A DNA stretch of 64,000 nucleotides. It comes from Ananas comosus. Its lineage: Eukaryota > Streptophyta > Magnoliopsida > Poales > Bromeliaceae. This document shows, piece after piece, positions 1 to 63,842 of the stretch. Position 1 is the first letter of the stretch. Each line of letters starts with the position of its first letter. Location: positions 14,576,797 through 14,640,796 of the forward strand of contig NC_033622.1 of the NCBI RefSeq assembly GCF_001540865.1, written 5' to 3'. The notes beneath the pieces are model-generated. The model was not told where the DNA came from and ran no database searches. It saw nothing but the letters and a program-made list of their open reading frames with translations. Both the position numbers and the translations under genes were made by a program.

Positions 1-720
1 TTTCTCCTCTAAAGTGCCGAACTCGACTTTCACTATACTCAACCTCGTCTAAAAAATTTATTAAACAGTAAAATCTAAAGTCTAGTTCCTTTATAATGGA
101 TTAGAATTACCTTATTTATAATAAATTAGAATTATCTTTAAATAATAATAAAAAAATTAATTATATAATAGATTAAATTTTATAGTGATAAATTTATTAC
201 TATATTTAGGAGATAATGAGATTCACTTACTTACATCAAAACAAACAACGGAACTCAAAAACTAATTTTACCAGCACCAAGTTACATCAAAACAAACAAC
301 AGAAGTGATTGAATTTAACTTTTAGGCAGTACGAGTTACGTCAAAACAAACAACAAAAAAATAATCACACTTCAGGAAAACTCAAACACCAATACACTTG
401 ACTTACGTTGAATCTACAAATACGTCAATCCAAACGCCCCCTTAGTCAACTCATCGACCAATGAAATCTTTTATTCTGATACTACATTAAAAATAAGGGA
501 TAATTGTCTATATATCGCTCAAAACTTCGAAAATATTTCATTTGCCTCTACTTTTTTTTTCTTTCCTATATACCCCTCATATGTTCCTTCGTTATTCCAA
601 AACACTCCTACAGTTATCATCCGTTAAGTTAATTTTGGATTAAACGTGAGTTAAATATCTACCAGAGTTAAAAAAAATTCAAAATGTCTCTTTTGTCCTT
701 AATTTAAGGGCAAATAAGAA
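1..720. other. AT-rich intergenic DNA
   Basis: No coding potential is seen. A short phrase ending in ACATCAAAACAAACAAC recurs at about 235-250, 285-300 and 340-350, which suggests a small degenerate direct repeat or the edge of an old transposon. Confidence 0.4.
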
Positions 721-1099
721 AACAACTTATGAGTACAAAGGATTACGCATGGGCAATATTAAAATTGTACTTTCCAGTGGTATCGCTGTCGTTTTTTTTG
801 CCCTTTACTTGATGAACTTTATTATGATTTCGAAAAATTACAAAATTTATTTTTTAAAAGTTTCAAATACTCTATATCGTATTTAGCGGAGTGGATCGTT
901 GATTCAGAAGCACCATCATCAAAAATAACTTATGAGTTCAAAGGACTTTCTACTCATAACTTTTGGATCAAACACTATTCCACCTACCACCACGTACCAC
1001 CACCTACAACCATCATCTCAACCCTGCATCTCTCCTTCCAATGGCTAAAAACTCAAAAACACCAACCCTTTGATGTTTTTGAGAGTATTTTAGCTCAAC
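719..1099 (-). mobile_element. Compound foldback-MITE remnant
   Basis: Bases 790-958 match the terminal part of the long foldback family found complete at 15401-15952 (shared phrases around TTTATTATGATTTCGAAAAA and GGAGTGGATCGT). Bases 959-1099 match, in reverse orientation, the short family found at 4812-5032 and 19650-19868 (shared GGATCAAACACTATTCCACC). The outer end carries a stem-loop with arms CTCAAAAACA and TGTTTTTGAG and runs straight into a TA microsatellite. This is either a fusion of two elements or a nested insertion that lost its internal ends. Confidence 0.6.
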
Positions 1100-1121
1100 T
1101 ATATATATATATATATATATA

Positions 1122-1385
1122 TAGTAGGACTACTGTGCTATTAGGAGCACAGCAATCCCTATGCTCCTAACTTTCTAACCACCCATCAAGTTTGATGGAT
1201 GGTTAGAATGAGAGGAAAAAAAGATATTGGAGAGAAATTGGGTGTCTCAATTTCTCTTCTCCTTAAATTTCTCTCCAATATCTTTTCCCCCTATCATTCT
1301 AACCACCCATCAAGTTTGATGGGTGGTTAGAAAGTTAGAAGCGCAAAGGCTGCTGTGCTCCTAATAGCACACTAGCCCTGCTCTA
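1122..1385. mobile_element. Palindromic MITE in a TA microsatellite
   Basis: This element of about 264 bp folds back on itself almost end to end. The left arm (about 1165-1245) and right arm (about 1262-1345) are inverted copies, and each arm contains its own small palindrome around CATCAAGTTTGATG. The subterminal stem-loop key TTAGGAGCACAGC occurs at the left end and, inverted, at the right end. TA repeats flank both sides (1100-1121 and 1384-1396). No coding capacity is seen, so it is a non-autonomous element. Confidence 0.75.
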
Positions 1386-1395
1386 TATATATATA

Positions 1396-2687
1396 TTGTA
1401 ATTGAATGGATGGCCTCTGCATGCCAACAATTGTTCCTTCGGTGCACTAAAGAGACAAAGATACACTTATTTATTTATTTTTTGTTCCTCCCTTTTGTTT
1501 TATTATTTCTTGCATGTCACCAAACTAGGCCAAACTCAACAATTTGAAACACCGAGCACGCCATTTCCAATATTTTTTCAACTATATAAATAGGTATCCT
1601 TTTTTTAACACTCCTTCACTTGCAAAATCTCGAGGCCATCATAAAATCTCACAAAACGTAGTGTGAAATTTGTGTTGGATTAAATTAAATCAATCCGAAT
1701 AAACCTAGTGTGTGTGTGTGTATTCTTGCGTTCGTTGGATCATTCTAAGTCACCCATAACAAGCCACAAAGTGAAAGAGCTAGCATATTAATGTTATAGC
1801 AAAGAAACCCATATTTTACACTCCAATTACGAAGCTCGTAGATTTAATAAATCTAAAGGGATTATCAAGATGTGGGCCGAGCCATTAATATGAACCAGAA
1901 AATTGGACTCTACTATGAATGCACACGTTACAGTACCACACCATACCACACGAGGAGCAACTCTATATAAATACACACGTTCATGGACGCGCCCTTTATT
2001 TTTTCTTTTTAATCTTATTTCTTTTAGTTCAAGAGGAAAAGATGGGTTCTTTTTTAGCTTATGGAATTGTTATAAAATTGCAAAGTGAACTTGTTAACCA
2101 ATCTTAAACTGGAGCATGATGTTAGAATTTTAGGTCACATTTTTAAGGCGAGACGGAAGCTTAAATTAGTAACAAAGCTTTTGCTCAACTTGGTTTTATT
2201 TTTTGTTCTTACTTTGTTAGTTTTAGTTTTAGTTCTTTCACGTAAGATCCGACGCAGCAGTGGCGTGCCGGAGAGAGAGTCTCGAAGAAATGCTTTTTGA
2301 TTAATGGTGCATGAGCATACACAAATGAATTATTAGATCAGCGTAGTGTTTCTTAACTATACTTTTTGTGATTGCGTCTTTTACGGATGAGTAGATGTAT
2401 CAATAAATATTTATTGATGAGTCAGTATTAATTAACTCCCATGTCGGGTTTCATTTTGGAAATTAGAAAGATAAATTCAATCACAATTAGAACTATATGG
2501 TAGGGCCATCTAATGTACAAGCATAGTTTTTGTTTTTTTTTTTTTTTGTTTTTTTTTGGTCACAGATGATACCTTTAAATTTCGACCATTAACTAAAATT
2601 GACAATTCTGCTATTGTTTTCACGCTCCACTCGCTTACTCATGTTAGAAAATATTATGTTTACTCTCGTTTACATATCGTCTATATA
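1396..2687. other. Intergenic DNA, no gene seen
   Basis: AT-rich sequence with short spurious reading frames only. It contains a short GT run near 1711-1720 and a T-rich tract at 2527-2558. Nothing here resembles a conserved protein. Confidence 0.4.
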
Positions 2688-2910
2688 GGCTTAGTTTGGT
2701 ATTGAGGTGGATTTAATGCTATTAGATAAAATGGAGTTGAAAAAAAGCATACAGGAATATGCTTGTGCATTTTCCGATTGGATCGCAGAAAGTAACCAAC
2801 TAACCGCAATATGCAAAACATAATATTACGTACGAAAACAAATAAGGTATTTTTCCATCGTCGTTTCTCACCGCACGTAACGCAATCTCTCCGCAATCCC
2901 AAACAAAGCC
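2688..2910. mobile_element. MITE with GGCTTxGTTTGG terminal repeats
   Basis: The left end reads GGCTTAGTTTGGTATTG and the right end, inverted, reads GGCTTTGTTTGGGATTG, so the two termini match at about 15 of 17 positions over a 223-bp element. The trinucleotide ATA lies immediately outside both ends (2685-2687 and 2911-2913), which fits a 3-bp target-site duplication of the PIF/Harbinger (Tourist) type. No open frame of useful length is present. Confidence 0.6.
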
Positions 2911-2913
2911 ATA

Positions 2914-3212
2914 GTCGGATAGAAGTGTGGTTTTAAATTTCTAATGATGGGCCGCTAATTGAAAGTTATAATTTGGGCTGAGACACGGCCCAAAAAAACC
3001 CGGCTCGATCAAGGCACGAAAATTTAACATAATGGGTTGACCAATGATCAATATAAACACATGCAAGGTACTAACCTATCATCTTTTTCAAATTTGAAAC
3101 TTAACCGAAGAAATTTTAGAAGAAGACGAAATAAGATTCAGTCGCTCAAAATTTCACACCTTGCGATTCTCACGACTTAATGGGCCTAGAAGCTAAAAGT
3201 ACGTAGAGAGAA

Positions 3213-3248
<36 letters not shown>

Positions 3249-4183
3249 GTGATGGCAATATTATATAAGTTCCTCTTGTCATAGTGGAAGGGAGAAATAA
3301 GAAAAAAAGAAAAAAAAAAAGAAAAAAAAACTAAGCCAAATAAGAAGGACGTGTTATGTGATAGAAAATATTTAATCTGTTTGCATGAAAATATCACAAT
3401 TGTGTAAACTATAGCGGCCGGGGCACGATATGATTTCATGCATTTTCACCAAAAATATAACTTTATATGCTTTTTATCAATTTTTTTGGCCCAATATCAA
3501 ACAAGATTAAGAAAAATGAATGTCACAGAAAAGAACAAAAGATCATTCTTTGATGGTTAGTGAAATTTCTTGCTATAGGGGATCAATTAAAATGTGCTGC
3601 GTAAGAAATCACCGGGCTTTTTCTCCACTTTCATTTGGGTTTCTCTGGTCGTTTAAAATGTGCATGTAACACAATTCAAATTTCAAATAAAGCCTTTGTC
3701 GTAATCGTAAGCGGGTTTTTATCCGAGAGAGAGGTCGTGATGAATTAAGTAGATACAGATATACGCCGTAAAATAGCAGATATGAGAATTGAATTCAAAA
3801 CCTCCTGAAATTGAAAAAAAAAAAAAAAAAAAACTTACGACGAGCATAGTTAGCGTGTAACAAAAAAAAAAATCGATTTAATGCAAAATTGTCGATAATC
3901 CACCACGTAACATGCATCCCTTTTGTTCTAACTTTCAAAAATGTTGGGCATGAAAAAAAAAAGAGCAGGAAATTGCTGGATAGGCGTGGGTCGACAAAGA
4001 TGGCTTTCGGCTTAAACTTCCAACAAGGAGGAGAAAGTGAAAATTGCACGAGTAAGTGGTGGGGGACTCACGTGTCACTAGAAAGCCATCCAAGTACATG
4101 CGTATACGTCACACGTGCGTAGTTTCTTAGTCAATAATGTAATGCAATAATTATATGCTAATAATAGTAATATTTACTTAAGT
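2914..4183. other. Intergenic DNA with simple repeats
   Basis: Contains an (AAT)n microsatellite at about 3212-3246, a purine-rich A/G tract at 3300-3332 and poly-A tracts near 3815-3832. Nothing resembles an exon. Confidence 0.4.
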
Positions 4184-4410
4184 AGAGTTATTATGCTATC
4201 TGAAATATAGAGGACCTGACATTTTCGATTTTTTAGCCCTTAAATCAACTTCTTTGATAATTTCTAATTTTTAGAATAATATTATTATCCTATGGGGATC
4301 ATTCAATTCTAGAGAAGGCCGCAATCATCCTAATTGTATAATTTTTTTATCTAAAGGTTAAAAAGTCAAAAATAATAAATCATATATGCTTCCGATAGCT
4401 TAGTAGCTCT
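4184..4410. mobile_element. Degenerate short foldback MITE
   Basis: The interior resembles the element at 63594-63842. Shared motifs are a 'TTTTTTAGCCCTTAAATCAA'-like block, a GGGGATCATTCAA block and a TATCTAAAGGTTAAAAA block near the end. Termini are eroded, and the end GCTTAGTAGCTCT is recognisable. It is an old copy. Confidence 0.4.
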
Positions 4411-4549
4411 ACACATATTTACTTTGTTAATTAACAAATCACAAGACAAATTTAGTCTTTGCAACTCTAAAGATGGTCCCCACACAATCTCACAGTAGGG
4501 TCCCAATAAGGCCACTTTAAGTATAAATAAATAATAATCAATATAAGCT

Positions 4550-4685
4550 TATGAAAGGGCGATAGGGTTGGAGCCCTCCCCGCGTTTTGCGCTCTCCGCC
4601 CTCCCGTACGGCGCCCCCCTCCCTTCCAATTTTTTCCCCCCTCCGTTTCGTAGCGGCGATAGGGCTCGAGCGCACATTATTACAT
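4550..4685. other. Isolated GC-rich island
   Basis: About 130 bp of strongly C+G-rich sequence sits inside AT-rich DNA. It is bounded by two related phrases, GGGCGATAGGGTTGGAGCCC near 4557 and GCGATAGGGCTCGAGCG near 4654, so it may be a repeat unit or an inserted fragment. No coding frame is convincing. Confidence 0.35.
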
Positions 4686-4774
4686 TACTCAGCTCTATCA
4701 AATCTAGTTAGCTAGAGTTTTGAAAAGTATATAACACTTCAATAGTTTCATATCAAATAATGTGAAGAGTGTGA

Positions 4775-4811: not shown

Positions 4812-4815
<4 letters not shown>

Positions 4816-5032
4816 TAGGGCTAGAATACTTTTACAAGTATCACCTAAGTGATACTTGTGTGTTTCTAGCCCTTGGATGGAGAGATGGGAGGTTGAGATG
4901 ATGGGGGTAGGTGGTGGTAGGTGGAATAGTGTTTGATCCAAGGGCTATTTGTAATCAAAAAGTAGATCTAATGGCTAAAAAGGTGATAGCAACTTGGGGA
5001 TGATACTTGTAAAAGTATCCTAGATCAACTCT
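4812..5032. mobile_element. Short foldback MITE (ca. 220 bp), TA-flanked
   Basis: The left end CTAGAATACTTTTACAAGTA and the right end, inverted (CTAGGATACTTTTACAAGTA), match at 19 of 20 positions. The left subterminal stem-loop has arms ACAAGTATCAC and GTGATACTTGT. The interior carries a GGTAGGTGGTGGTAGGTGG block shared with 19650-19868. Long TA microsatellites flank both sides (4776-4811 and 5033-5044). Confidence 0.75.
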
Positions 5033-11927: not shown

Positions 11928-14804
11928 CGCGCGGAACAAAGATTTATAGGTTTCAATCCATTTCCTTTTAGAAGGAATTGCGGGTCGAACATGAGAAGCT
12001 GCTTGTGGCTTCCTTTCTCCCCCAACAAGCTGTAGCTCTTCTTCTTCTTCTTCTTCTGTTTATTTCTCTTTTTCGTTTTTCCTTATTTAGGTAGCTCTGT
12101 AAAAGTATGTGCTTGCTTAATGGATGTCTCTTTCTTAGCAGTTTGCTTACATTTTCTCTTCTGTTTTTTTTCTCCTTCCCTAAGTATATATATATAAATA
12201 TATATTATCTCATGGACATATAAAAAGTGGATTCACCATATTATTCTTTTCACATAACTGCTTGACACAGTTCGGTGTTTTCTCACCGAACCATCGAAAC
12301 TAGATTTTGCATTTAATAGAAATGGTTCGCAACAGTGACTTTTAGAAGCTATCTAATTCGATGAGATTATTATCGCGATGAGATTATTATGAATATATGC
12401 TTTTTATGGTTTTTGTGTGTTGGTTTAAATGGAATGGGCCAAGTCATGTTCAAAATGGCGTGAGACTGGATAGGCCGAATTATTTTCGAAATGGCGTGAG
12501 GTTGATTGGGTCAAATCACAATCGAGACCCGTGGGCGTTATATCTGTACGCTTTAAGTGAATTGGTTGCGTATTTCTAACAGCCCGAGCTTTGGATTAAT
12601 GGTTAGTGTTAACGATCCAACATTGTGTGGGTGTCAGCTGCTTTGAGAACTTATCTACTCTGTGAAGCTGCAGTAATCATGTGGAAAATAAAACGTTCAA
12701 ACCTAGTAGTTCCAATAACACTCAGATCTTCTTCTTCTTTTTTTGGCCTTGCTTTTGCTCTCATCTGGAGTTATCTATAACAAAGCACTTGCTTATCAGA
12801 AAAGTTTGGAGTTTTCGTTGTTGCGGAAAGCAAAGTTTTGATTTTGGCCTCAAAAGGCAAAATTTTCAATTTGAAATACCCTAGACTACTAGGGAGAGAA
12901 ATTATTAGAAAAACTTGGAGTTTTTGACGCTGCGAAAAGCAAAAAATTGAGAATCTTATTTATGTTTCCCACAATAGCAAAAACATCAGCTGGAAACAAC
13001 TGCTAAGAAGAGCAACAACAAAAGCCTCGGACTCGATTTTCCAGAATAGGAATCATAGACAACAACTCGGCTCACCAGGCTCAGTATTCCTGGGCTAAGC
13101 TCATCCAATTTAATAAACGAGTTTAATTAACTCAATTAAACATGTGGACTATGATGGGCTACATCGCCTAAGATTGATTTGTAAATGATCGCTTATTGGG
13201 CTAGTGCGAACGTTGAGCCCATTATTGGCCAATAAGATGGCCCTATCTTTTAAAGCTCGTACGTAGTGGCTGAGCCCGGCCCACGAGGTTGGGCCCAAAT
13301 GTAGATCTACACCTGGTAAAAAACGAGCCTTGATTGGGTTGGATCGACCCATTTGGACCCCCAATTTTAATTTATTGAGCACAAATTTTGTCTACAATCT
13401 GCGCACCACTGGCTATCAGAGGAGGCGAGATGCACCTAGGCCATTAGACATGAGAATAGCTAATCAAATTTATTCTTCGGAGCTGAGCCAAACGTTAACC
13501 ACTCCAATTTGGCCAAAAAAAAACGACTTCAAAATGGTTTTAAACCGAAGACCGAAGAATTTTCCGACTTAATGCCCCAGTATGTATTAATTATTTCAAT
13601 TTTTGTTAACTCGCAAACTAAAATTATAAATACAACTTCCATTGATTAATTTAATTTAACACGCGAAGTTGACGAAGTGTCGACAATTTTGATGACTTAG
13701 CTTTTAGATTTGGGAAAGTTTCTTTCATTTCTATTTTATGATGAAAAACACAGAGGAACTTATCTCTAATTGGAACATGCCCCCTCAATGCATGTAAGGC
13801 CATCAAGTACTGTACTGGTGTGTCCTTAAAGCAAATGTTGGGGTGTGCATTATGAAAAGTTAAAAACTACTGCCGCAAATTTACTCACTCTCTCCGTACG
13901 CTTTTTACTTACAGCAATTGAATTCAAATGAAGCATTACAATGAAAATGAGTACGTGCGAGAGCCGACAATTCAACAACAAAATCTTCGAACTTGTCGCA
14001 TGATAGGTCTTTCGTTGTGAAAGCTCAGCAATTTATTAATTATCATATGTACTGGACCGACTCATCGATAATATGGGATGCTACTACATTGCTAAAAGGA
14101 TAATAAAGTTTAAGTTTATGAAGCATCTCTAGCATGTAAGAAAGGGCTACATAGTACATGCCTAAATATCAATTAAACACTCTATATATAGGCCTCAAAA
14201 TAATGGGGCATAAATAAGTGTTTCCATTTTGGACCAAACTTAAGCTTTCATGGTAGTTGTTCTAAAAAGCCAATCCAACTTCTACAATATGGCTCTCTCC
14301 TTTCACTTTATATTGAGTGTTTTATTTGGATACGTAATAGAAAAAGAGGAGAAAAGGTTAAGTGAAGAGAAAAATCAGCTATATTGTTTCTACTTATCAA
14401 TGAAATATCTGCTTCATATTTTCTTTCTCGTCACATCATAGCTTTGGTTTATTCTTGGTCGCATATATAGCTTTGATCCGAGACAATCTAAAAGATCTAT
14501 TATGTGCACATATTCTCATTTTCATTTTCATTCATTGCTAATGTAGTCTAAATTTTCGAGTAAATAGTATGTTGTATATCTTGAAGATTTAAAGCTTATT
14601 ACTTGTTATTATCAGTAACTGTAATAGTTTAAAGTTTGCTAACCAGTTATTGAAATCTTGACGAATGGCGTGATTTACCTTTTGTATGGCTTGTATATCA
14701 CAATGATTAAACTATTAATATAGGTCGCAAATAACATGCTATGTACACCTCTTATCTTAATATTATCTTGATCTCTACAATATATATATATATAGAGGGA
14801 GAGA
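11928..14804. other. Gene 3' end and intergenic DNA
   Basis: The first few hundred bases probably hold the PADRE 3' UTR (a CTT repeat near 12040-12055 lies in it). Around 12427-12510 the phrase AAATGGCGTGAG(A/G)(C/T)TG recurs twice in a short tandem arrangement. Bases about 13070-13340 are unlike the surroundings and resemble dispersed-repeat DNA, with no conserved protein. Confidence 0.4.
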
Positions 14805-15346
14805 GAGCTAGGCTGGTATACTATCGCACGGAGGTCTCCGTGCTACCAAGTTGTTTTCAATGATCCGGTTTTCAAATCGACGATCGGCTCCGTTAGACTT
14901 GATCTACACTATTAAAAGTATTTGGAAACTAAATTTCATAATTTTCCGACATCATTTGGCTACTGATCCAAAAGTCTCAAAATTGATAATTTTAATGGTA
15001 GATGTGGTGCGTTTGTGAATTTAACGGTGTAAAATAATCCAAATCTGATAAAATTTTTATAGAAAATTCTTTTCACTATTTAAAGTAAGATTAATACCTC
15101 TGATCTTAAATTCAAGTCGCTTATCATCATTTTTTATAATACTTTTAATTTTAGCCGTTCATTTTTAAACTACTCGTTTGATAGATAAATGATGTCGAAA
15201 AATTATGAAATTTAGTTTCCAAATACTTTCAATGGTATAGATCAAGTTTAACGGAACCGATCGTCGATTTGGAAGCTATATCATTGAAAACAACTTGGTA
15301 GCACAGAGGGCTCCGTGCTACTGATAGTATACCAGCTTAGCTCTCT
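14805..15346. mobile_element. Long foldback MITE (ca. 540 bp), key GTAGCACGGAG
   Basis: Inverted halves: the phrase GATCGGCTCCGTTAGACTTG near the left end returns inverted near the right end. The subterminal stem-loop near 14830-14850 has arms resembling GCACGGAG and CTCCGTGC. The right end (15297-15325) carries the matching inverted hairpin. It is preceded by (TA)n(GA)n and followed by (CT)n(TA)n, so the compound microsatellite looks like part of the terminus. No coding capacity. Confidence 0.75.
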
Positions 15347-15400: not shown

Positions 15401-15945
15401 AAGTCCGGCTCGGCTACTATACTCTTATGAGTACGATCGCCCTCGTACTCATAAGTAATTTTCGATGGTAGAGCTTCCTAATCGACAATCCACACCGTTA
15501 AACGTTATCTAGAACATTTAAAACGTTTATAAATCAAATTTTATAATTTTTCGACATCATTTACCTTACGATCAAAAAGTCACAAAATTGACAATTTTTA
15601 ACGACCGGTATGTGATATTTGCTAGTTTAACAATGTAAAAAAAATAGAATAGATTGAATTTTTGATAGAAAATTCTATTCACTACCTAGATAAAGATCAA
15701 TAACTCCGATCTTAAATTGAAGAATCCGATCATCCATTTTTAGGATGTCGTTCGATTTTGACTGTTCATTTTATGCCCGTTTGATGGACTTTATTATGAT
15801 CTCAAAAAATTACGAAATTTATTTTTTAGAAGTTTCAAATACTCTAGATCATATTTAACGGAGTGGATCGTCGATTCGAAATCCTATCATTGAATACAAC
15901 TTATGAGTACGAATGGCCCAATACTCATAAGAGAGTATAATAGCC

Positions 15946-15952
<7 letters not shown>
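15401..15952. mobile_element. Long foldback MITE (ca. 550 bp), key TTATGAGTACG
   Basis: Same body plan as the preceding element, but the subterminal stem-loop has arms TTATGAGTACG and CGTACTCATAA. The same key is present inverted at the right end (15900-15932). The inner arms share GATCGTCGATTCGAAA-like blocks. A (CT)n(TA)n tract (15951-15997) follows it. Confidence 0.75.
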
Positions 15953-15997
<45 letters not shown>

Positions 15998-18475: not shown

Positions 18476-19045
18476 AATGACTCGGCTAGAGATCTTCAGA
18501 ATCATTTGGAATTGTCTATATCGGATAAATTAATTACTGTATACGACGAATAAATGATGTTGCCTCGAAGTCTCATTTTATCATATCCAATCCAGGTAGT
18601 CGAAAAGGTCATCTGTTGAGCACTCATTTTAGATCAGCACGAAATATTCTAAATTAAGCAAAAAAAATAAGATGGCGTAAAGTGCAAAATCAATCTAAAC
18701 ATGGTTTTTTTTTTAAAAAAAAAATTTCCAAATAATTAAAATGTGGGGAGTATTGTGGTGGAGCCATTACGTGCTAGCTTGTTGAAGAGCACCGCCCCTG
18801 AGCTGTTTATGGTGTAAGGAATCTGCTTTTGATGGAAGCAATTTTGTCCGCTTTGTTAATTTCTCGCTGAATTATTATTGCCTTGTATGCATTTTCAAGC
18901 TCGTTCTCTTGATAATCAATGACTTCCTTTTTATAAACTATGATTGTGTTTCATACTTTCAATGCAAGTCGGGGAGAAATTGTTTTTTTTTTGAGAAATG
19001 TCGTGGAGAAATTGTTATCTTTATATGTATATATATAGAGAGAGA
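18476..19045. other. Intergenic DNA, no gene seen
   Basis: AT-rich sequence with A/T homopolymer tracts near 18703-18724. No coding or RNA feature is recognised. Confidence 0.4.
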
Positions 19046-19596
19046 GAGGTGGGTTATTATATTTTTATGAGTACGATCGACTTTCGACTCATAAGTCGTT
19101 TTTTTATGATAGAACTTCCGAATCAACGATTTATATCGTTAAACATTATATAGAGCATTTGAAACTTCTAGAAACTACATTTTATAATTTTTTGATATAA
19201 TTTATCTTATGATCAAAGAATTTCAAAGTTGACAACTTTAATGACCGGTATGCGTGGGATGCTCGTTAGTTTAATGATATAAAAGAATCAAAATTTGTTG
19301 AATTTTTAATAAAAAAAAATTATATTTACTATCTAGATAAAGTTCAATAACTCAATCTTAAATTGAAGAATCCAATTATTCATTTTAGGATTTCCTTTAA
19401 TTTTGATCATTTATTTTATATCCGCTTGATTGATTTTATTATAATTTTGAAAAATTACGAAATTTTTTTTTTAGAAATTTTAAATGCTCTACATCATATT
19501 TAACGGTGTGGATCGTTAATTCGAAAGTTCCATCATTGAAAGTAATTTTCGAGTACAAAGAGCTTTATACTGATAAGAGTATAGTAGCCTTACTCT
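19046..19596. mobile_element. Long foldback MITE (ca. 550 bp), diverged
   Basis: Same family as 15401-15952 (shared TTATGAGTACGATCG left hairpin, TCATTTATTTTATATCC-like interior and GGATCGTTAATTCGAAAG right arm), with more substitutions and weaker right-end pairing. Flanked by TA repeats with GA on the left and CT on the right. Confidence 0.7.
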
Positions 19597-19609
19597 CTTT
19601 CTCTCTCTT

Positions 19610-19649: not shown

Positions 19650-19652
<3 letters not shown>

Positions 19653-19863
19653 TTGAGCTAGAATACTCTCAAAAGCACCAAGGGGGTTATGCTTTTGAGT
19701 TTTTAACCATTGAATTAAGAGATGTATGGTTGAGATGATGGTGGTAGGTGGTGGTAGGTGGAATAGTGTTTGATCCGAGGGGTATTAGTAATTAAGGAGT
19801 AGATCCAAGGGCTATAAACTTAGAAGCACCAAGGTGTTGGTACTTCTAAAAGTATTCTAGCTC

Positions 19864-19868
<5 letters not shown>
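19650..19868. mobile_element. Short foldback MITE (ca. 220 bp)
   Basis: Terminus GAGTTGAGCTAGAATACT, inverted at the right end. The left stem-loop has arms CTCAAAAGCA and TGCTTTTGAG. The right stem-loop has arms near AGAAGCACC and GGTACTTCT, so here the two ends do not share one key. Interior GGTAGGTGGTGGTAGGTGG is shared with 4812-5032. Confidence 0.7.
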
Positions 19869-19903: not shown

Positions 19904-19907
<4 letters not shown>

Positions 19908-20444
19908 GGGCTACTATACTCTTATGAGTATAGAGCCCTTCGTACTCATAAGTTGTTTTCGATATTGGGCTTTTCGAATCGACGATCCACACCGTTAAAC
20001 ATGATCTATAGTATTTGAAACTTTTAAAAAATAAATTTCATAATTTTTCGAAATCATTATATAGTCCATCAAGCGGGTATAAAATGAACGGTTAAAATCG
20101 AACGACATCCTAAAAAAGGATGATCAGATCCTTCAATTTAAGATCGGGGTTATTGATCTTTATTTAGGTAGTGAATAAAATTTTCTATCAAAAATTCAAT
20201 CTATTCCAATTCTTTTTCACTGTTAAACTAGCAAATATCTCATACCGGCCGTTAAAAATTGTCAATTTTGTGAGCTTTTGATCGCAATGTAAATGATATC
20301 GAAAAATTATAAAATTTAATTTCTAGAAGTTTTAAATGTTCTAGATAATGTTTAACGGTATGGATCGTCGATTCGAAAGCTTTATTATCGAAAATAATTT
20401 ATGAGTACGAAAGCGATTGTACTCATAAGAGTACAGTGGCCGGT
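19904..20444. mobile_element. Long foldback MITE (ca. 540 bp), key TTATGAGTA
   Basis: Close relative of 15401-15952 in largely inverted-body arrangement. Both ends carry the CTTATGAGTA / TACTCATAAG stem-loop. It is preceded by a TA microsatellite (19869-19903). Confidence 0.75.
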
Positions 20445-22869
20445 ATGATCTGTTGGGGAGTGTTTGATTCCTAGAGGAGAAAAAAAGAAATTCTTTTTAA
20501 AAAAATATAGTACCAATACCAAACAAGGGCAAAACTCACACTTTGACTAGCTTTTGACACTACACATGCATTATCATAATCTAGGGTTCAAGATATTCTG
20601 GTTGCAATTTTTGAAATTTTAATTTGGTTGGTTCAAAATTAAGTTAGGTCATGGAAATAAAACATATTCATGCAATTTCACAAAACTTACACTTAAAAGG
20701 TTATTCTCCACTTTACGTTTCGAAAAATGTAGATCATGTGGGCATGTGATCTTTTATGAAATTTAGCATGGATGTTACCATGTGGCATTGTACCAAAGTT
20801 AGGCCAAATTGCTTCAAATAATAATAAATATTTTTGTCTCCTTTACTCCAAGTTAACATACCTACCACTAGGAATAAAAACATCAGTATATAACTACAAA
20901 ACATGTACCATTTTTTTTCCTCTCCTCAAAACGAGGACTAATATATAGGAACTACAAATCTAGAGTATGAGAAAATTGTACATAATTAAAAGTATTTAAT
21001 CATATATTTATATATATCCACATGAATCATGCAAAATACATGAAACCCCTAAAATGCCCTTTTATCAAGAGTATGTAAAAGCGCACCAAAAGGTTACAAG
21101 AACAACTTTTGTTTTTGTAATAGAATTGTATGGAGCCCACGTTGTTTGTGATATAGCTGGGAACAGTTACAAAGCAAATTAATGGGCCAAAAATCCATAC
21201 ACTTGAAGCCGAAAGAAATTAAGCTCAAACTACTTATTTTGGTCTACTCGAGAGGCGCTTACTATGCTAGCGCGCTTAATATTTTACATTCAACACTCTG
21301 TATCATATTTGAGATTATCGATTTTCTGAGAACAATTTAAAAGTCCGCATTAATCGATAACATGCATGCATATGTGATATTTTTATGTAGGTGCAATTTG
21401 GACATTTGAATTGGTTCACTGTTCTTTAATTATATGCTTTTGAGGGTCTTCTCAATGTGCTCGACATGTCCTAGCTTTCATTTGTGACTTTAATTTCCTT
21501 TTCCAATTATATCAACCCAATGATGTTGAGATATAACTAAAATTTTACAGCTGTGTTGCTGCAAAAAATGCACATATTAAATACTCTTATGTACTATTCT
21601 GATTCAACAATTAATAGATATTTTTCAAATTTGCTTTTCCGTAGTGTTACTTCAATTGACTCTGAACTTTTTTTTCATTTCTTTTAATAGCTGGAAAGTC
21701 CGTAATTAAATTAATTGCAATAGTTACATAATTTTTAAAATTAATGTACTTAAGTTAAAAATAGAGGTACCAAATGTAATATATATCCAACTACCACACT
21801 CATAATATATGCTTCATAATTTCGCTAGAACTATAACACATTTACAACAAGCCCATTGTAGTTATTTAATGATCATAATGAAAAACATTATGAGTGTTTT
21901 TTTAAATAATACTTAGGTTCGACATTAAAGTTTTCTAGGTGTATTTGAGAATTAAACTAACATTTCTATGAACTTCATATCCTACTTCAAAAAAAGGATC
22001 AAGTGATTGGTGAATAACAAGGTGAACAAAATTTTACAGTTTTTATTTCGCATGATTTTGAAATTTTTGTGCGGTGTTTTTGTACCGGATTTTTCTTTGA
22101 AATGATCTAAATTTTTTTATAAAATTGTATAATATAATAAAAAATTAGCATTTTTGATACGAAAAGCACATCACCAATATGTTTTTAATAAATAATATAG
22201 TAAAAGTAACAAAGTTTGATTTGTCTTTAGTTTTTCTTTTTAATTTTTTAATGTATCATCTTATAATCAATCATATCCTGTTGGATGTGTGCTGTACGGA
22301 AAATATAAGCTTATCCAATCTTTTTCTCTTTTTATTTACTTGTTTAAAAAATATCATTTTCAATTAGTAAGGCGATGCTTTTGAATGTATGCTACAATTT
22401 AAAAACCCACTTGTGTGTTAATTATACATTAAAAATGCATTATTATGTTATTAATGTGATGCTTTTTAGTTCCCGACATGTTCAAAAGGACAACGAATGT
22501 GTCCAAATTAGACTAATTATTGGTCAAATTACAAATTTTTCCACAAACGTGGCTCGAGTTTATCACAATGGTCGGGTCAAAAGAAAATGAAATTAATAAA
22601 TATCTAAATAAATAAATAAAAATTGGCTCTGCGAATTTTCGAGGGTCAAAAATTCACTAATGCTCAATTTGATTTACAAAAAAGAATTAGAAATTTTTAA
22701 TTCGAGAAAAATAATAATTTTTTTAATAAAAAATAACATTTATCTGCTTCATTCATTAAAAATATGAATTAAACAATATGGGTGAGGTGAAAAAACCTCC
22801 GCATAAGCAAGAAGCAAGAAAAAAAAAGAAAAGAATCTAAGAACGTTGGCTTTTAGACGATAGAATAAC
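20445..22869. other. AT-rich intergenic DNA, no gene seen
   Basis: Only short spurious frames such as those near 22179-22590. No homology to a known family is seen and no RNA gene is evident. Confidence 0.4.
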
Positions 22870-50000: not shown

Positions 50001-50087
50001 GTTAGGCTGTTATACTATCAGTAGCACGGAGGCCTCCGTGCTACCAAATTGTTTTCAATGATGCGGCTTCTAAATCGACGATCGGCT
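50001..50087. mobile_element. Long foldback MITE, left end only
   Basis: Matches the left end of 14805-15346 (GTAGCACGGAGGCCTCCGTGCTAC hairpin given here as arms GTAGCACGGAG and CTCCGTGCTAC). It is cut off by the run of undetermined bases at 50088-50112 and preceded by a TA repeat. Confidence 0.7.
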
Positions 50088-50112
50088 NNNNNNNNNNNNN
50101 NNNNNNNNNNNN
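50088..50112. other. Assembly gap (25 N)
   Basis: Undetermined bases interrupting a foldback element. The rest of that element is not present on the other side. Confidence 0.98.
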
Positions 50113-50887: not shown

Positions 50888-51805
50888 CTATTTGTTGTTC
50901 TTGGTGGTGGTGAGAACGATGGGCAGGACGATAACGAGGATGATGATGAGGAGGAGGATGATGGCGAAGCAGGTCCACTTGCGGGTGCTCTTCTGGTGCG
51001 TGCGGGCGACCTGCAGCTGCTCGCGGCCGCGGTCGACGAAGGACTTGGCCCGGCCGACGTGGTTCTCGATGTCGTCGAGCTGCTCGCCCTGCGCCTCGAC
51101 GAGCACGGCCATGTCGAGGAACACCTGCTGCAGCTCCAGCAGGCTCCGCTCCAGCTCCGCCACCGCCCCGTGCCGCTCCTGTATCTCCGCGATCACGTCC
51201 ACCACCCTCCCCCGCCCCTGCTCCTCGATCGCCCGCTGCAGGAACCGCTCCCCCTCCCCCGTCGCCGCCAGCGCCTCCACCGTCGCCTCGTCCGCCTCCT
51301 CCCCGGTCACTGTGTAGTACCGCCGCCGCACCGTCTCCCGGTACTCCCCGGCCACCCGCTTCCGGAGCTCCGCGAACGCCTCCATCGAGTCCCTCAGCTT
51401 CTTGCGGAGCCCGGCCACCACGGAGGTGCGCGTGCGGTCCGTGGAGCTGCCGGGCCCGCAGCCCGGGGCGGAGCGGTTGGCGGCGTTGGCGCGGTCGAGC
51501 GCCTCGAGGCGGAGCTTGATGACCTTCGCCTTCTTCAGCGCCTGCGCCACGTCCGCGTCCATCCGCGCCCGCAGCCCCCGCACCGCCGCCGCCTCGTGCA
51601 GCGTCTTCCCGGCCTCGTTCGCCTCCTGCAGCCGCCGCTGGATCCGCTCCACCTCCCGCAGCTCCTCCTTTATCCCCTCCACGTCCTCGAAGAACCTGTC
51701 CAAGCTCGCCCCGCTCGCCCCCATCTCCACTCCCCCTCCCCCTCCCCCTCCCCCGGATTCCAGGTCGTCGCCGCGCCTCCACGACGACGAGAACAGGTTG
51801 TTCAT
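50888..51805 (-). CDS. SYP121: SYP12-class plasma-membrane syntaxin (Qa-SNARE)
   Basis: Target-membrane SNARE for secretory vesicle fusion at the plasma membrane; relatives act in cell-wall-associated defence (PEN1) and in stomatal and ion-channel traffic. Intronless, 305 residues. Start MNNLFSSSWRR at 51805, matching the MN(N/D)LFSSS start of the group. About 33-165 form the Habc domain (LDRFFEDVEGIKEELREVER, LEALDRANAANRS, CGPGSSTDRTRTSVVAGLRK). About 205-270 form the SNARE motif with the zero-layer glutamine Q239 in VEAQGEQ. Residues 279-298 are the C-terminal membrane anchor, followed by a short luminal or apoplastic tail (TTTKNNK). The SYP121/122/124/125 members are close to one another, so the exact orthologue is not certain. 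Glycine-rich codons near the N-terminus vary in this family. Confidence 0.93.
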   Translation of the reverse strand: MNNLFSSSWRRGDDLESGGGGGGGGVEMGASGASLDRFFEDVEGIKEELREVERIQRRLQEANEAGKTLHEAAAVRGLRARMDADVAQALKKAKVIKLRLEALDRANAANRSAPGCGPGSSTDRTRTSVVAGLRKKLRDSMEAFAELRKRVAGEYRETVRRRYYTVTGEEADEATVEALAATGEGERFLQRAIEEQGRGRVVDVIAEIQERHGAVAELERSLLELQQVFLDMAVLVEAQGEQLDDIENHVGRAKSFVDRGREQLQVARTHQKSTRKWTCFAIILLLIIILVIVLPIVLTTTKNNK

Positions 51806-56343: not shown

Positions 56344-56344
56344 N

Positions 56345-56513
56345 GATGGATAAAAGAACAATATCGAAAGTGCGTGAAATTTGATTTCTAGGTAGTTTAA
56401 ATGGTTTAGATCATATTTAATAGAGCCGATCGTCAATTTGGAAGCTCTATCATCGAAAACAACTCGATAGTAAAATGCTCCGTTTACTATCGAGAGTATT
56501 CTAGCTCAACTCT
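56345..56513. mobile_element. Long foldback MITE, right end only
   Basis: Matches the right end of 14805-15346 (GAGCCGATCGTCAATTTGGA). The right stem-loop has arms CGATAGTAAA and TTTACTATCG, a key unlike the other copies. The left part is missing at the undetermined base 56344. Confidence 0.65.
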
Positions 56514-56532
56514 CTATATATATATATATATA

Positions 56533-56758
56533 TGCTGGAATACTATCAATAGTACCAAGTTATTGGTGCTATTAGTTTTTTTAGCCTTTGAATTAAGAAA
56601 TATACGATTAGAATGATATGCGCCTCCTAGGGTTGAGTGGGTACATAGTTGGTTGAATAATATAATCTAACGGGTAAAAATAATCATAGGGGTTAATATA
56701 ACGGCAGAAAATTTACTAGCACCAAGTGTTTGATACTATCGATAGTATAGCAGCCGGA
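56533..56758. mobile_element. Short foldback MITE (ca. 226 bp)
   Basis: TA-flanked. The left hairpin has CAATAGTACC paired with GGTGCTATTAG-like arms, and the right end carries the same key inverted around GATACTATCGATAGTATAG. The interior resembles 63594-63842 (GGGTTGAGTGG block, inverted relative to ACCACTCAACTC). Confidence 0.65.
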
Positions 56759-56759
56759 C

Positions 56760-59060: not shown

Positions 59061-59471
59061 AAGTATTAATCTAGCACGTGCAAGATCCACGTGCCGGTGA
59101 AAGAACTGGACACGTGTACAGCGGACGAGTGATTTTTTTTCCCATGCGCCACGCCTCTTCGTTCGTAATCATTCCCTGGCACAGTGTTGGAACTGCTAAT
59201 AAATAGGCGAAGAATCTTTTTCCCATAAAAGGCAAAATAATGATTTTAAAAAAAAAGAAAATGAGAAAAAAAATATATATATATATATATATTTACGTTG
59301 TCACATGTCACATGCTTCTTCTATCCTCGACGATCCGCTCACCCGTCGCCCTCGTCGACGCGAATTTACCATTTTGCCCCTCTGACGCCGCGTTCGCCCC
59401 ATTACTCGGTCGCCAAATCCTCGCCGAGTATTTGCCGAGTAGTATCGTATTTTCAGCTCCTCGTTGTTTTT
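59061..59471 (+). promoter_or_regulatory. Orphan promoter-like region, three G-boxes
   Basis: CACGTG occurs at 59075, 59088 and 59111. A TATA-like AATAAATAG lies near 59199. A GC-richer stretch with CGTCGCCCTCGTCGACGCG follows to about 59460 and ends at an undetermined base (59472). The order (G-boxes, TATA-like motif, GC-rich leader-like sequence) suggests a promoter whose gene is not represented here. Confidence 0.4.
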
Positions 59472-59472
59472 N

Positions 59473-60730
59473 ATATCTTTGATCATCGTTAGACGACACA
59501 AATTAAACTCGGAAACTATAAATGTACATAAGTATGAATTACTATTGAAAGAGTGGTTATAGAAAACCTAATTAAGTCTACCATGTGAAGTTGTAATGTA
59601 AATGAATCAAGCACCTTTTTAATTCGAGTAATCCAATGAATCTGCTCTATCAAAATAAATGAGATCGTTTTTGCTCCCTTATAATATCAGTAAACTATTT
59701 GAAATTTATTATTCTTCATACTATTTAATTTTAAACTTAAAGCATATCTAATCTTTTTAACCTTGTAATGTATAGCTAGGGAGAACAAGCAATCACATTT
59801 GAATACCTCACTAGAAGAAAATGTTCAATTTAAGTGATTAGAAAGATATTATTCATTGGCCATAATAAATACCATAATTAATTCAAACTCTTTTCCAAAG
59901 TTATTTAATGTTAGTGCATAGTGACACCCTTGTGCTAAGATATTTTATCTTTGTCAAAGCATTCATGTGGGGCAAGTAACCCATTATCTTCTCACCAAAT
60001 TGGGGCTTAATCATATATATTAACAATAAGTTACATGGTTAATTAATTCGTAGTTGTTCATCCTTCATATTCAATTTGGATATTGGTCCTAGAAAAAGGT
60101 TAAAACCTACTAAGACATGTGCACTTAATATATAACCAATTTGATCTACTATTATATATAAAGCTTATTAATGATAGTTAAAACAAGAATCTAGGGTGAC
60201 CAAATCAAATTAGAATATTATTGCATTAATTATAAACAAAGGTGATAGATGACACCTCACTACATCTCTACCCATACCCATAGGAACAAGCAAAACCGTG
60301 ATTTGTATTAAACATCACGATTCTAAGTGTGTTTGACGAAATTATTCCTCGATTATTTATTCAGCTCGGAGAATTAGATACACTTCTCAACCATATAACT
60401 TCATTATCATAAATAGAGAAATATAATGAACCAACTGATTAATTAATGGAAAACTATATGATCTAAGCCCTCTAATAGAATAATTAAAGTGGCACTAAGT
60501 AATGGAGTTGACTCAAGCTAGCTAGAAAATTATAAAAGTCGATATATTTTATATGAACTTTTTTTTTTGGAGGTATAAGGACTTATGTTGTATATCTAGT
60601 CTAGTCAATCAGTGCTTTGTAAAATCGCGCCAAAAAATAAAATATATTTTTTAATTATTTGATATGCTATATATATTTATCAACATATTATTTGAATGAG
60701 ATGTAACTTTTCATAAAAAACTTTAGCTAT

Positions 60731-60745
<15 letters not shown>
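59473..60745 (+). repeat. 1.26-kb direct duplication, copy 1
   Basis: Begins ATATCTTTGATCATCGTTAG directly after the undetermined base 59472. It is repeated 1451 bases downstream with only a handful of substitutions and one indel. It ends in a TA microsatellite. Non-coding. Confidence 0.9.
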
Positions 60746-60764
<19 letters not shown>

Positions 60765-60923
60765 CGAGCTCAACTCTTGTATTTTTCTTTTCCATGGGAA
60801 ACTCAATGATTGAGCACGAGTTGTATTAAGGAAAAACAAGATACACAGTAAAAGAAGTTATTGAATCTCACTAATTTTTTACTTTTTTTTTCAGGAAAAT
60901 TAATCGGAAATGGTAAATCTGAA
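60746..60923. other. Spacer between the 1.26-kb copies
   Basis: Holds the end of a TA microsatellite and about 160 bp of unique AT-rich sequence. No gene. Confidence 0.5.
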
Positions 60924-62184
60924 ATATCTTTGATCATCGTTAGACGACACAAATTAAACTCGGAAACTATAAATGTACATAAGTATGAATTACTATTGAA
61001 AGAGTAGTTATAGAAAACCTAATTAAGTCTACCATGCGAAGTTGTAATGTAAATGAATCAAGCACCTTTCTAATTCGAGTAATCCAATGAATCTGCTTTA
61101 TCAAAATAAATGAGATCGTTTTTGCTCCCTTATAATATCAGTAAACTATTTGAAATTTATTATTCTTCATACTATTTAATTTTAAACTTAAAGCATATCT
61201 AATCTTTTTAACCTTGTAATGTATAGCTAGGGAGAACAAGCAATCACATTTGAATACCTCACTAGAGGAAAATGTTCAATTTAAGTGATTAGAAAGATAT
61301 TATTCATTGGCCATAATAAATACCATAATTAATTCAAACTCTTTTCCAAAGTTATTTAATGTTAGTGCATAGTGACACCCTTGTGCTAAGATATTTTATC
61401 TTTGTCAAAGCATTCATGTGGGGCAAGTAACCCATTATCTTCTCACCAAATTGGGGCTTAATCATATATATTAACAATAAGTTACATGGTTAATTAATTC
61501 GTAGTTGTTCATCCTTCATATTCAATTTGGATATTGGTCCTAGAAAAAGGTTAAAACCTACTAAGACATGTGCACTTAATATATAACCAATTTGATCTAC
61601 TATTATATATAAAGCTTATTAATGATAGTTAAAACAAAGAATCTAGGGTGACCAAATCAAATTAGAATATTATTGCATTAATTATAAACAAAGGTGATAG
61701 ATGACACCTCACTACATCTCTACCCATACCCATAGGAACAAGCAAAACCGTGATTTGTATTAAACATCACGATTCTAAGTGTGTTTGACGAAATTATTCC
61801 TCGATTATTTATTCAGCTCGGAGAATTAGATACACTTCTCAACCATATAACTTCATTATCATAAATAGAGAAATATAATGAACCAACTGATTAATTAATG
61901 GAAAACTATATGATCTAAGCCCTCTAATAGAATAATTAAAGTGGCACTAAGTAATGGAGTTGACTCAAGCTAGCTAGAAAATTATAAAAGTCGATATATT
62001 TTATATGAACTTTTTTTTTTGGAGGTATAAGGACTTATGTTGTATATCTAGTCTAGTCAATCAGTGCTTTGTAAAATCGCGCCAAAAAATAAAATATATT
62101 TTTTAATTATTTGATATGCTATATATATTTATCAACATATTATTTGAATGAGATGTAACTTTTCATAAAAAACTTTAGCTACTA

Positions 62185-62200
<16 letters not shown>
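60924..62200 (+). repeat. 1.26-kb direct duplication, copy 2
   Basis: Second copy, about 99% identical by eye. Differences include AGTGGTTAT versus AGTAGTTAT, CTCTATC versus CTTTATC and AACAAGAATC versus AACAAAGAATC. It ends in a longer TA microsatellite (62187-62222). Confidence 0.9.
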
Positions 62201-62222
<22 letters not shown>

Positions 62223-62224
<2 letters not shown>

Positions 62225-62730
62225 AGTAAATGGATGCCATACAACATGCTCCTTATATATGTAAATATTAAACTCTTAATGATCAATAAGAAAATGAAAA
62301 AGAGACCACTTTGCCAACTAGAGGAAATAAAGGCATCGTTGAGGGGCAAATAAAAAATAAATAGGTGATGATCAAAAAATTAACATGTGTGGCTAACACC
62401 CATTTTATGGGTGTTTGTGTTTAACTAAATTAATGAGAAAAATGGTCACATGGTCACCTCTTGAAAGATTTAAGTAATAATTACATGTTGCGATCGTGCG
62501 TGATTGTTTATAGAATAAGATCTATCAACGGTGCGTGGTCAATAAGAACGAGCACGTCCGTTGCTTTTTAATTAGAAGGATATTACTTTTATTTTATTTA
62601 TTTTACTTGGATTTGAGATGTGCATCCAATCATTTTTCTCCTTCTCTCTTCCTCTCTCTTCAAAACTATGGGGTGTAGATCCAAGAAGTGAAATGAACTA
62701 TAATACTTATAAATTTGATATATATATATA
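62223..62730. other. Intergenic DNA, no gene seen
   Basis: Mixed AT-rich sequence; a CTCT-rich patch lies near 62638-62660. No coding feature is recognised. Confidence 0.4.
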
Positions 62731-63060
62731 GAGTGAGGCTACTATGCTATCGGAAGCACGGAGCCTTCCGTGCTTCCAGCTCGTTTTCGATGTTGTGACT
62801 TTTGAATCGTCGATCGGCTCCGTTAAACTTGATCTAGAGTATTTGGAGTACCTAGAAAATAAATTTTATTATTTTTCGATTTCATTTGCCTAGTGATCGA
62901 ATGGGCTCAAAATCAACAAATTTCAACGGCCGTAGTGAGCCGTTTGCAAGTTTAACGGTGTAGAAATATCCAAATCACGTGAAATTTTGATAGAAAATTC
63001 TTTATACTATATAAAACAAGATCAATATCTTTGATTTAAAATTTTAATGTCATATTATTA
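62731..63060. mobile_element. Long foldback MITE, left part only
   Basis: Same body as 14805-15346 (GATCGGCTCCGTTAAACTTG). The left stem-loop has arms GGAAGCACGGA and TCCGTGCTTCC. Truncated by the gap at 63061. Confidence 0.7.
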
Positions 63061-63572
63061 NNNNNNNNNNNNNNNNNNNNNNNNNNNNNNNNNNNNNNNN
63101 NNNNNNNNNNNNNNNNNNNNNNNNNNNNNNNNNNNNNNNNNNNNNNNNNNNNNNNNNNNNNNNNNNNNNNNNNNNNNNNNNNNNNNNNNNNNNNNNNNNN
63201 NNNNNNNNNNNNNNNNNNNNNNNNNNNNNNNNNNNNNNNNNNNNNNNNNNNNNNNNNNNNNNNNNNNNNNNNNNNNNNNNNNNNNNNNNNNNNNNNNNNN
63301 NNNNNNNNNNNNNNNNNNNNNNNNNNNNNNNNNNNNNNNNNNNNNNNNNNNNNNNNNNNNNNNNNNNNNNNNNNNNNNNNNNNNNNNNNNNNNNNNNNNN
63401 NNNNNNNNNNNNNNNNNNNNNNNNNNNNNNNNNNNNNNNNNNNNNNNNNNNNNNNNNNNNNNNNNNNNNNNNNNNNNNNNNNNNNNNNNNNNNNNNNNNN
63501 NNNNNNNNNNNNNNNNNNNNNNNNNNNNNNNNNNNNNNNNNNNNNNNNNNNNNNNNNNNNNNNNNNNNNNNN
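63061..63572. other. Assembly gap (512 N)
   Basis: Undetermined bases. They probably hide the right part of the foldback element on the left, and possibly more. Confidence 0.98.
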
Positions 63573-63593
63573 TATATATATATATATATATAT

Positions 63594-63842
63594 AGCTGTA
63601 CTGGGCTATTATTAGTAGCAAAATTTTATTGTTGCTATCAGTTTTTTAGCCTTTGGATCAACTCTTTTCATTATTTCTAACCATTAGATTAAATACTATA
63701 ACCCAGTGGTGATCACTCAACCCTAGAGGGACCACTCAACTCTAACCGACTAATATCATCCTGACCATACAATTTTTTATCCAAGGGTTAAAAACTTGAT
63801 AGCAAAAAGAACATTTTACTATTAATAGTATTCCAGCCTAAT
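63594..63842. mobile_element. Short foldback MITE (ca. 249 bp)
   Basis: TA-flanked on both sides. The left hairpin is around TAGTAGCAAAA and TTGTTGCTATCAG, and the right end carries an inverted relative around TTGATAGCAAAAA and ACTATTAATAGTATTC. The interior has GATCACTCAACCCTAGAGGG, shared in degenerate form with 4184-4410. Confidence 0.7.

Follow-up and report, generated by a model that had tools for sequence, protein, structure and literature searches.

How can the stem-loops at the two ends of a group of transposable elements differ in their letters from one element to another while the pairing of their arms is kept? This question is raised by a 64,000-nucleotide stretch of the pineapple (Ananas comosus) genome (contig NC_033622.1, positions 14,576,797 to 14,640,796 of the forward strand, RefSeq assembly GCF_001540865.1), hereafter the window, which contains 15 elements or fragments that are non-autonomous Mutator-like miniature inverted-repeat transposable elements (MITEs) of pineapple, inserting into (TA)n. 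A first-pass annotation of the window, made from its letters, had counted at least thirteen of them and held that the stem differs sharply between elements while its pairing is kept, and that four copies of it change together by co-conversion, template switching or some other programmed process. Here, we describe a module of invariant geometry at the ends of these elements, the behavior of the sequences around it between and within subfamilies, and a candidate autonomous relative that carries the same module.

An invariant module at the element ends

The bodies of the window elements can be sorted into classes A (A1, A2, A2pp and A3), B (B1-B3), D, Dp/X and C. The B, D, Dp and X bodies are mutually similar, whereas no body-wide match connects A, B/D/Dp/X and C, the exception being a 48-base match between A3 and Dp (E-value 5e-4). 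Genomic copies were sampled from the 382-Mb assembly (3128 contigs) with a whole A1 element (30 loci), an A2 body without its ends (25 loci) and a C body without its ends (20 loci) as queries; the best 40 candidates of each genome search were scored, and neighboring elements of other types were included unselected. Extraction by bodies alone from 72 loci and the window yielded 217 elements with 424 ends, 18 of which were dropped as they contain unknown bases. Among the remaining 406 ends, 345 fall into 17 end types of at least three members, and the 61 in smaller clusters were left out.

The consensus sequences of all 17 end types fit the pattern TRCT-N6-AGYA-N12-TRCT if the last core letter is also allowed to be C (TGCC in type A4), and the pattern is mostly preceded by GCT-N4. 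This module spans 30 bp and contains three copies of a 4-bp half-site in alternating orientation, whose centers are separated by 10 and 16 bp. The tip is formed by the first half-site, the core of the outer arm of the stem by the second, which is inverted, and the core of the inner arm by the third; we refer to the lineage-specific sequence around the middle half-site, plus its mirror, as the key. The geometry is common to the body classes without body-wide similarity (A; B/D/Dp/X; C), and no amplified lineage with a changed spacing was found among the 17 types. The module matches 247 of the 406 ends exactly, 301 with one mismatch and 327 with two, compared with 0-8 exact matches for the other spacings of the grid and none in 2030 shuffled ends. 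In the whole window it has 16 exact matches, every one at an element end, while 142 other spacings gave 0.24 matches on average (maximum 6). In the 300,727 bases of 73 loci it has 308 matches, compared with a mean of 2.9 for other spacings, for which the maximum of 140 at spacing 11/12 arises because TACT is doubled in the tip CTACTATACT. When GCT-N4 was required in front, 239 matches remained in the same bases versus a mean of 0.58 (maximum 23). Known bodies account for 272 of the 308 matches, one was not classed, and 35 lie elsewhere; among these 35, a TA/GA run or GCT-N4 precedes 31 and neither precedes the other four, and three are window ends already listed. As a separate observation, locus L048 contains three identical end modules exactly 256 bases apart (at about 252, 508 and 764, minus strand), a short MITE-seeded tandem array that is possibly a satellite in the making.

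Stem-loops and covariation between lineages

The stem-loops at these ends are real. The best hairpin score of 25 window ends has a mean of 18.6, compared with 11.2 (standard deviation (sd) 2.7) in 375 shuffles; taken singly, 13 ends have scores reached by at most 0.8% of shuffles, three have scores reached by 3.2%, and nine do not stand out. When tips were folded as single-stranded DNA (ssDNA), nine of ten had a z-score of -3.0 or lower, the exception being the right tip at 63787-63841 (z -0.15). All six stems named by the first-pass annotation are present in their places, but they do not differ as sharply as it had stated: nearly all keys share the core AGYA opposite TRCT and differ around this core, and are therefore diverged versions of one segment. 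Neither is a key private to its element, as core-aligned outer and inner arms agree at 74% within the same end, at 78% between different elements of one family, and at 50% between different families. With one end per family from ten families, the observed match of the arms was reached in none of 20,000 shuffles.

Covariation of the two arms between lineages is real as well, so the part of the earlier claim that pairing is kept while the letters change, across different bodies, holds. In the consensus sequences of 16 end types (B_R left out), 180 of the 224 stem pairs are Watson-Crick, compared with 125.8 (sd 6.9) when the inner arms are swapped between types (0 of 5000), while two loop columns used as an internal control gave 11 of 32 versus 11.1 when swapped. 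At least two types of base pair occur in 10 of the 14 stem columns. When six types were chosen, in three different ways, the true pairing each time ranked first, alone, among the 720 arrangements; given the relatedness of B, D, Dp and X, however, the six are not independent classes. The same signal is seen in 252 distinct matches to the geometry, where 6.84 of 10 flank pairs are Watson-Crick versus 4.40 (sd 0.09) when swapped, and in 33 distinct ends outside the seven body types (6.70 of 10 versus 4.15, sd 0.26). As the pairing permutations do not preserve relatedness, these statements apply at the level of families.

The tip and the outer arm are also complementary to each other, a relationship that is real but weaker than that between the outer and inner arms: in the window, the complementarity score is 11.0 for an end's own segments versus 9.3 for those swapped between families, and with one end per family it is 12.9 versus 10.2 (sd 0.8; 4 of 5000). 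The N6 between the tip and the outer core is self-complementary (31 of 48 versus 16.3, sd 3.2), hence the tip and the outer arm can form a second, competing hairpin. This hairpin was seen directly in the fold of 19908-19958, and is strong in type C (GGGCTACTGTGCT / AGCACAGCAGCCC). Wobble polarity was considered as evidence for a strand-specific hairpin in RNA or ssDNA and was rejected as such, with 27 wobble versus 17 anti-wobble mismatches (p = 0.17), and 13 versus 10 in a cleaner subset.

Keys mark subfamilies and decay within them

In the genomic copies, keys are lineage marks that follow the body subfamilies. Seven named key types were found on the A body alone. Both ends were typed in 119 A elements: 90 of these carry the same named type left and right, one carries two different named types, and in 28 an unclustered end is involved. 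Placed on a tree built from 132 A bodies, the 24 end labels require 24 changes versus at least 65 in 200 shuffles, although these labels contain some inner flank, so that the agreement is partly built in and is no pure test of the key. Mean identity of A bodies is 65-86% between named types and 85-95% within types. The divergence of keys is only somewhat above that of bodies, with 46% versus 68% identity for A1a and A2pp, and about equal values within A1. We make no claim that the key is replaced faster than the body: Fisher p-values were 0.03 (A1a-A2pp), 0.09 (A1a-A2) and 0.01 (A1c-A2), those of three closer pairs were not significant, and the linkage of key columns makes such p-values too small.

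Within subfamilies, the arms decay nearly independently of each other. In the 15 types with a defined stem (types A4 and B_R were left out of this count), 3722 pairs were scored, 3224 of which are intact, 465 are changed on one side, 23 are changed on both sides and still paired, and 10 are changed otherwise. The 23 compensated doubles represent 14 distinct changes and are in slight excess over the 16.4 (sd 3.4) expected when arms are shuffled within a type (maximum 27 in 500). Since keys follow body subfamilies and the arms decay nearly independently within them, a special process by which four copies of a key change together is unsupported. Ordinary subfamilies with independently varying arms are what the first-pass annotation itself had set against its proposal, and the genomic copies show this pattern.

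Pairing is not equally well kept at all ends, and the claim that every element keeps it was overstated, as the stems of the old A1 copy at 19038-19605 are partly broken. The clearest case is the B2 lineage, for which we sampled the window copy (4813..5031) and 20 of the 39 other places, dropping 5 of 21 left ends and 5 of 21 right ends that were unframed. All 16 framed left ends have 10-12 of 14 positions paired, whereas 15 of the 16 framed right ends have only 6-8. The 20 other bodies are 91-99% identical to the window copy, indicating that this lineage amplified recently, and since it did so with a poorly paired right end, pairing is not strictly required. In L058 and L059, its key ACAAGTATCA is confined to the right outer arm; it occupies three arms in framed B2 copies, and all four in L095, which the unframed L094 resembles by eye.

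A candidate autonomous relative

The MULE (Mutator-like element) transposase domain (PF10551) has at least 150 matches in the genome, and we read five of these places. One of them, locus L099, contains an open frame of 820 amino acids with FAR1 DNA-binding, MULE and SWIM domains, located between inverted repeats of about 1.6-1.8 kb (97% identity over 1615 bases and 92% over 388). Both of its outer ends read GGTG-TGCT-ATTAAT-AGCA-N12-TGCT; the right end, which was read completely, contains GGCTGGTG and lies beside (TA)12, and the left end runs into an assembly gap. By eye, 18 of 20 letters in the tip and outer arm of L099 are those of type C, and a 26-base match to the right end of the window C element has an E-value of 0.005. 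Pairing of its key is weak (7 of 14). As judged by places only, transposase copies of this kind lie between paired related ends on contigs C8 (L099 itself), C13 and C16, and next to a single such end on C9. Compared by sequence with proteins of solved structure, the L099 protein had no match. From these features, L099 is a candidate autonomous relative. Inverted pairs of L099-type ends were also found around intervals with no listed transposase at G000:C24:4030646-4031632 (about 1.0 kb) and C300:5716-7033 (about 1.3 kb), which are probable non-autonomous derivatives. Another of the five places, L096 (G000:C15:5137001-5145000), holds a gene with a MULE domain; several places in the genome score equally for its group, and the 8 kb read there has neither inverted repeats nor the module.

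What may maintain the module

Judging from these sequence comparisons, we favor, with a probability of roughly 0.55, the reading that the module is a composite binding site of a FAR1-type MULE transposase, whose cores and spacing are kept by transposition and whose keys are fixed in the founders of subfamilies. In its favor are the specificity of the geometry, its presence on body classes without body-wide similarity, the amplification of the B2 lineage with poorly paired right ends, the L099 frame between repeats whose two outer ends carry the module, and the 10-bp target site duplications. In CACTA and hAT elements, transposase is bound by subterminal repeats of alternating orientation. The transposase would read the pineapple module as alternately oriented half-sites, probably with more than one subunit bound in opposite orientation. 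Cores and spacing would then be kept because ends without them would fail to move, while the flanking letters would drift and become fixed together whenever a subfamily arises from a new source copy. Part of the mirror symmetry in the flanks would be a dyad symmetry read by the protein and part would be shared descent, and no programmed exchange of keys would be needed.

Several observations weigh against this reading. No exact match to the module is present in 159 of the 406 ends, and 79 do not match even at two mismatches. Framed ends keep their cores by definition, and L078, L082 and L086, which belong to the B2 lineage, have a different, unframed right tip. Only one of the five MULE loci (L099) carries the module, and L096, L097, L098 and L100 are without it, although ends may be missed in L097 and L098, which hold 2110 and 941 unknown bases, respectively. 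The inner flank of L099 beyond the module scores 30 with the best MITE end, whereas the maxima of 20 shuffles average 22.6 and reach 33; being below the highest of these, the score makes L099 a relative and not a proven partner. Common descent from one ancestral end could alone give the same cores and spacing. Furthermore, a protein reading alone leaves unexplained the mirror-paired flanks where the letters of the two ends differ: the consensus ends of D, D2, Dp and B pair locally at 90 of 112 positions versus 83 when crossed with the opposite end, with four two-sided changes. These are small numbers, D2 shows the opposite (21 local versus 22 crossed), and the right consensus of B is from three ends. 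In the A1, A2 and C elements there is no local advantage (21.6 versus 22.2, 21.9 versus 21.9, and 20.0 versus 20.8 of 28, respectively). The local pairing seen where the ends differ, together with the self-complementarity of N6, would still allow a structural role.

Such a role could be played by the hairpin itself, if a cruciform, helped by (TA)n, or a fold of ssDNA or RNA were read by the transposase or host machinery, so that any letters that pair would do. This is what the covariation across types suggests, in particular as it extends to the 33 ends outside the seven body types, and it would accommodate both the competing tip-outer hairpin and the local pairing of D, Dp and B in spite of their different left and right keys. 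However, the B2 lineage amplified with poorly paired right ends, the key of L099 pairs weakly, the excess of wobble over anti-wobble mismatches is not significant, and the core letters are nearly constant, beyond what pairing alone would demand; we thus regard selection on the hairpin as rather unlikely. A more specific version, in which each end is a two-state DNA switch between tip-outer and outer-inner pairing, with flanks selected for pairing and not for identity and (TA)n as an easily melted neighbor, appears unlikely; if true, what a transposase or a host factor recognizes would be a structure, and its letters would be free to change between lineages.

The arms could also match through mutation, in line with the first-pass annotation, by template switching or quasi-palindrome correction within the hairpin, together with gene conversion between the ends. 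Template switching can make and repair stems, as described in passages of PMC8794818, the presence of the B2 key in one, three or four arms is what a stepwise spread would leave, and the slight excess of compensated doubles points the same way. Yet in resident copies single changes outnumber compensated doubles 20 to 1, so that any correction is far slower than decay, an end's own pairing has no advantage over crossed pairing in the A1, A2 and C elements, and invariant cores and spacing are left unexplained by this mechanism, which we consider quite improbable. Plain descent, in which a single ancestral palindromic end became diverse through a few source copies and the module has no present function, would agree with keys that follow subfamilies and with the decay of resident stems (465 single changes over 3722 scored pairs). 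It fits less well with consensus pairing that is mostly perfect and spacing that is unchanged although A bodies differ by 14-35% between types, and with the presence of one module on several kinds of body as well as on an element that bears a transposase, and seems to us slightly less probable still.

Elements in the window

All window elements lie on the plus strand except one. At its left side, the right part of a type A1 element (800..965, left limit by eye) ends in its key hairpin and is joined directly to a type B body with its right end (966..1099; key CTCAAAAACA); the fusion of the A1 right hairpin and the B body at 960-970 makes this a chimera, formed perhaps by a deletion between neighboring clustered elements. 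It is followed by a complete 260-bp MITE of type C with long inverted repeats (1124..1383; left module 1136-1165), and by an old copy of the X/Dp-like type (4180..4414) with a 10-bp direct repeat on its two sides (4170-4179 / 4415-4424), as Mutator-like elements have. The complete B2 element introduced above, of Ac-mMITE-2 size, has modules at 4827-4856 and 4988-5017. Its key had been reported as present and inverted at the other end; it does occur in three of the four arms, but the right inner arm is unpaired (6 of 14). For the complete A2 element (14800..15345, Ac-mMITE-1 size; right module 15300-15329), which had likewise been described as carrying its key at both ends, the left outer arm has a 4-base gap. 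A complete A1 element (15401..15955; left module 15420-15449) and the old A1 copy with partly broken stems (19038..19605; right module 19552-19581) come next. The complete B3 element at 19650..19866 (modules 19664-19693 and 19825-19854) had been called a partial exception, and is one in that its two ends carry different keys, each of which is locally paired. The single minus-strand element, a complete A1 copy (19905..20445) inverted relative to that at 15401, has modules at 19917-19946 and 20404-20433, and the outer key arm is an alternative pairing partner for its left tip.

In the right part of the window, assembly gaps cut a type A2 left end (50001..50088; module 50013-50042) and a type A2pp left part (62731..63060; module 62745-62774). 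Between them are a type A3 right end with a type-B-like tip (56361..56514; module 56469-56498) and a complete type D MITE (56534..56759; modules 56541-56570 and 56718-56747), and a complete type Dp MITE (63595..63842; right module 63801-63830) lies at the far side. At 56469-56513, the tip GTTGAGCTAGAATACTCTC of the A-type body is identical to that of the type B element at 19650, which is a sign of tip exchange between families or of a shared old tip. Two near-alike stretches about 1.45 kb apart (60450-60763 and 61902-62222), each ending in (TA)n, appear by eye to be a local duplication. The window also contains a syntaxin gene on the minus strand (50888-51805), whose protein is 99% identical to a syntaxin-121-like protein of Ananas comosus.

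Comparison with known elements

The elements themselves are already known, and for them the earlier remark that no named family of this description was known to its author does not hold. Lin, Sharma and Yu (2021; PMC8449440) reported two pineapple families, Ac-mMITE-1 (510-570 bp, with terminal inverted repeats (TIRs) of 140-180 bp) and Ac-mMITE-2 (210-270 bp, TIRs of 40-70 bp), which together make up 3.86% of the pineapple genome. According to the text of PMC8449440, they target (TA)n, have GA...TC ends with GA/CT slippage, form clusters, and have 9/10-bp target site duplications (TSDs) outside microsatellites, and no autonomous element was found for either family. The main text of PMC8449440 does not contain the words 'hairpin', 'palindrome' or 'stem'; it uses 'secondary structure' five times, the consensuses having been folded, and its figures may show the foldback. 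Our type A elements (about 540-560 bp, with left/right identity extending over about 155-160 bp) agree with Ac-mMITE-1, and the B, D and Dp elements of the window (about 215-250 bp, with left/right similarity over roughly 40-70 bp) agree with Ac-mMITE-2. In addition, a TA, GA or CT run is present in a flank of 117 of the 139 elements with both tips located, and 10-bp direct repeats, within the 9-11 bp TSD range of MULEs, flank the window element at 4170/4415 and the genomic copies L019, L088, L090 and L093. A scripted TSD scan detected one in the 139 elements, and three further ones (L088, L090 and L093) were spotted by eye and then checked; few TSDs are visible because most copies sit in microsatellites, and loci L076-L095 were also cut close. 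Judged by size, TIR, flanks and TSDs against the published description, type A thus fits Ac-mMITE-1 and types B/D/Dp fit Ac-mMITE-2. Type C, at 260 bp but with inverted repeats of about 115 bp instead of 40-70 bp, fits neither family well. The palindromic ends make these elements foldback elements in structure, which is a description and not a separate family.

Searches of the literature on Ac-mMITE, mt-MITE and pineapple MITE returned PMC8449440 alone, and no description of such an end module was found in titles and the starts of abstracts. The type A1 end pattern, the one pattern searched, had no match in other-genome contigs and none in viral contigs. With such a strict geometry, relatives can be sought almost without regard to sequence, autonomous ones among them, in pineapple and perhaps also where other genomes contain (TA)n-targeting MULEs. 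What MULE transposases recognize likewise becomes a direct binding question, for which the naturally amplified, poorly paired ends separate structure from sequence without engineering.

Compared by description, the Ac-mMITEs of PMC8449440 share with our elements the host, (TA)n targets, end type, sizes, TIRs, TSDs and clusters; that description has two families and no autonomous element, whereas the ends here fall into 17 types that share an invariant module, and a candidate autonomous relative was found. MuTAnT of Medicago (PMC4486113) is likewise Mutator-like, with (TA)n targets, a 9-nt TSD and a foldback structure with four similar segments, and its autonomous copy encodes a Jittery-like transposase. 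It differs, compared by description, in that the Results and Discussion of PMC4486113 report neither the covariation of a key nor a spacing. SaTar elements of guayule and rice, including Micron (PMC5907723), are also non-autonomous MULEs in (TA)n, with copies having 10-bp TSDs and clusters, but 'hairpin', 'palindrome' and 'secondary structure' are absent from the main text of PMC5907723. Muta1 of Aedes aegypti (PMC5225508) is an active MULE of the foldback class with a palindromic terminal motif and subterminal repeats in a long TIR; unlike the pineapple elements, it has nine direct 12-bp repeats and no apparent target preference, and passages of PMC5225508 mention no covarying key. In maize, MURA binds a conserved motif of about 32 bp in the Mu TIRs (cited in PMC3310237), compared by description with the 30 bp of the pineapple module. 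With the MURA motif, the palindrome and repeats of Muta1 and the four segments of MuTAnT, the reading of the module as a binding site agrees with these reports on MULEs.

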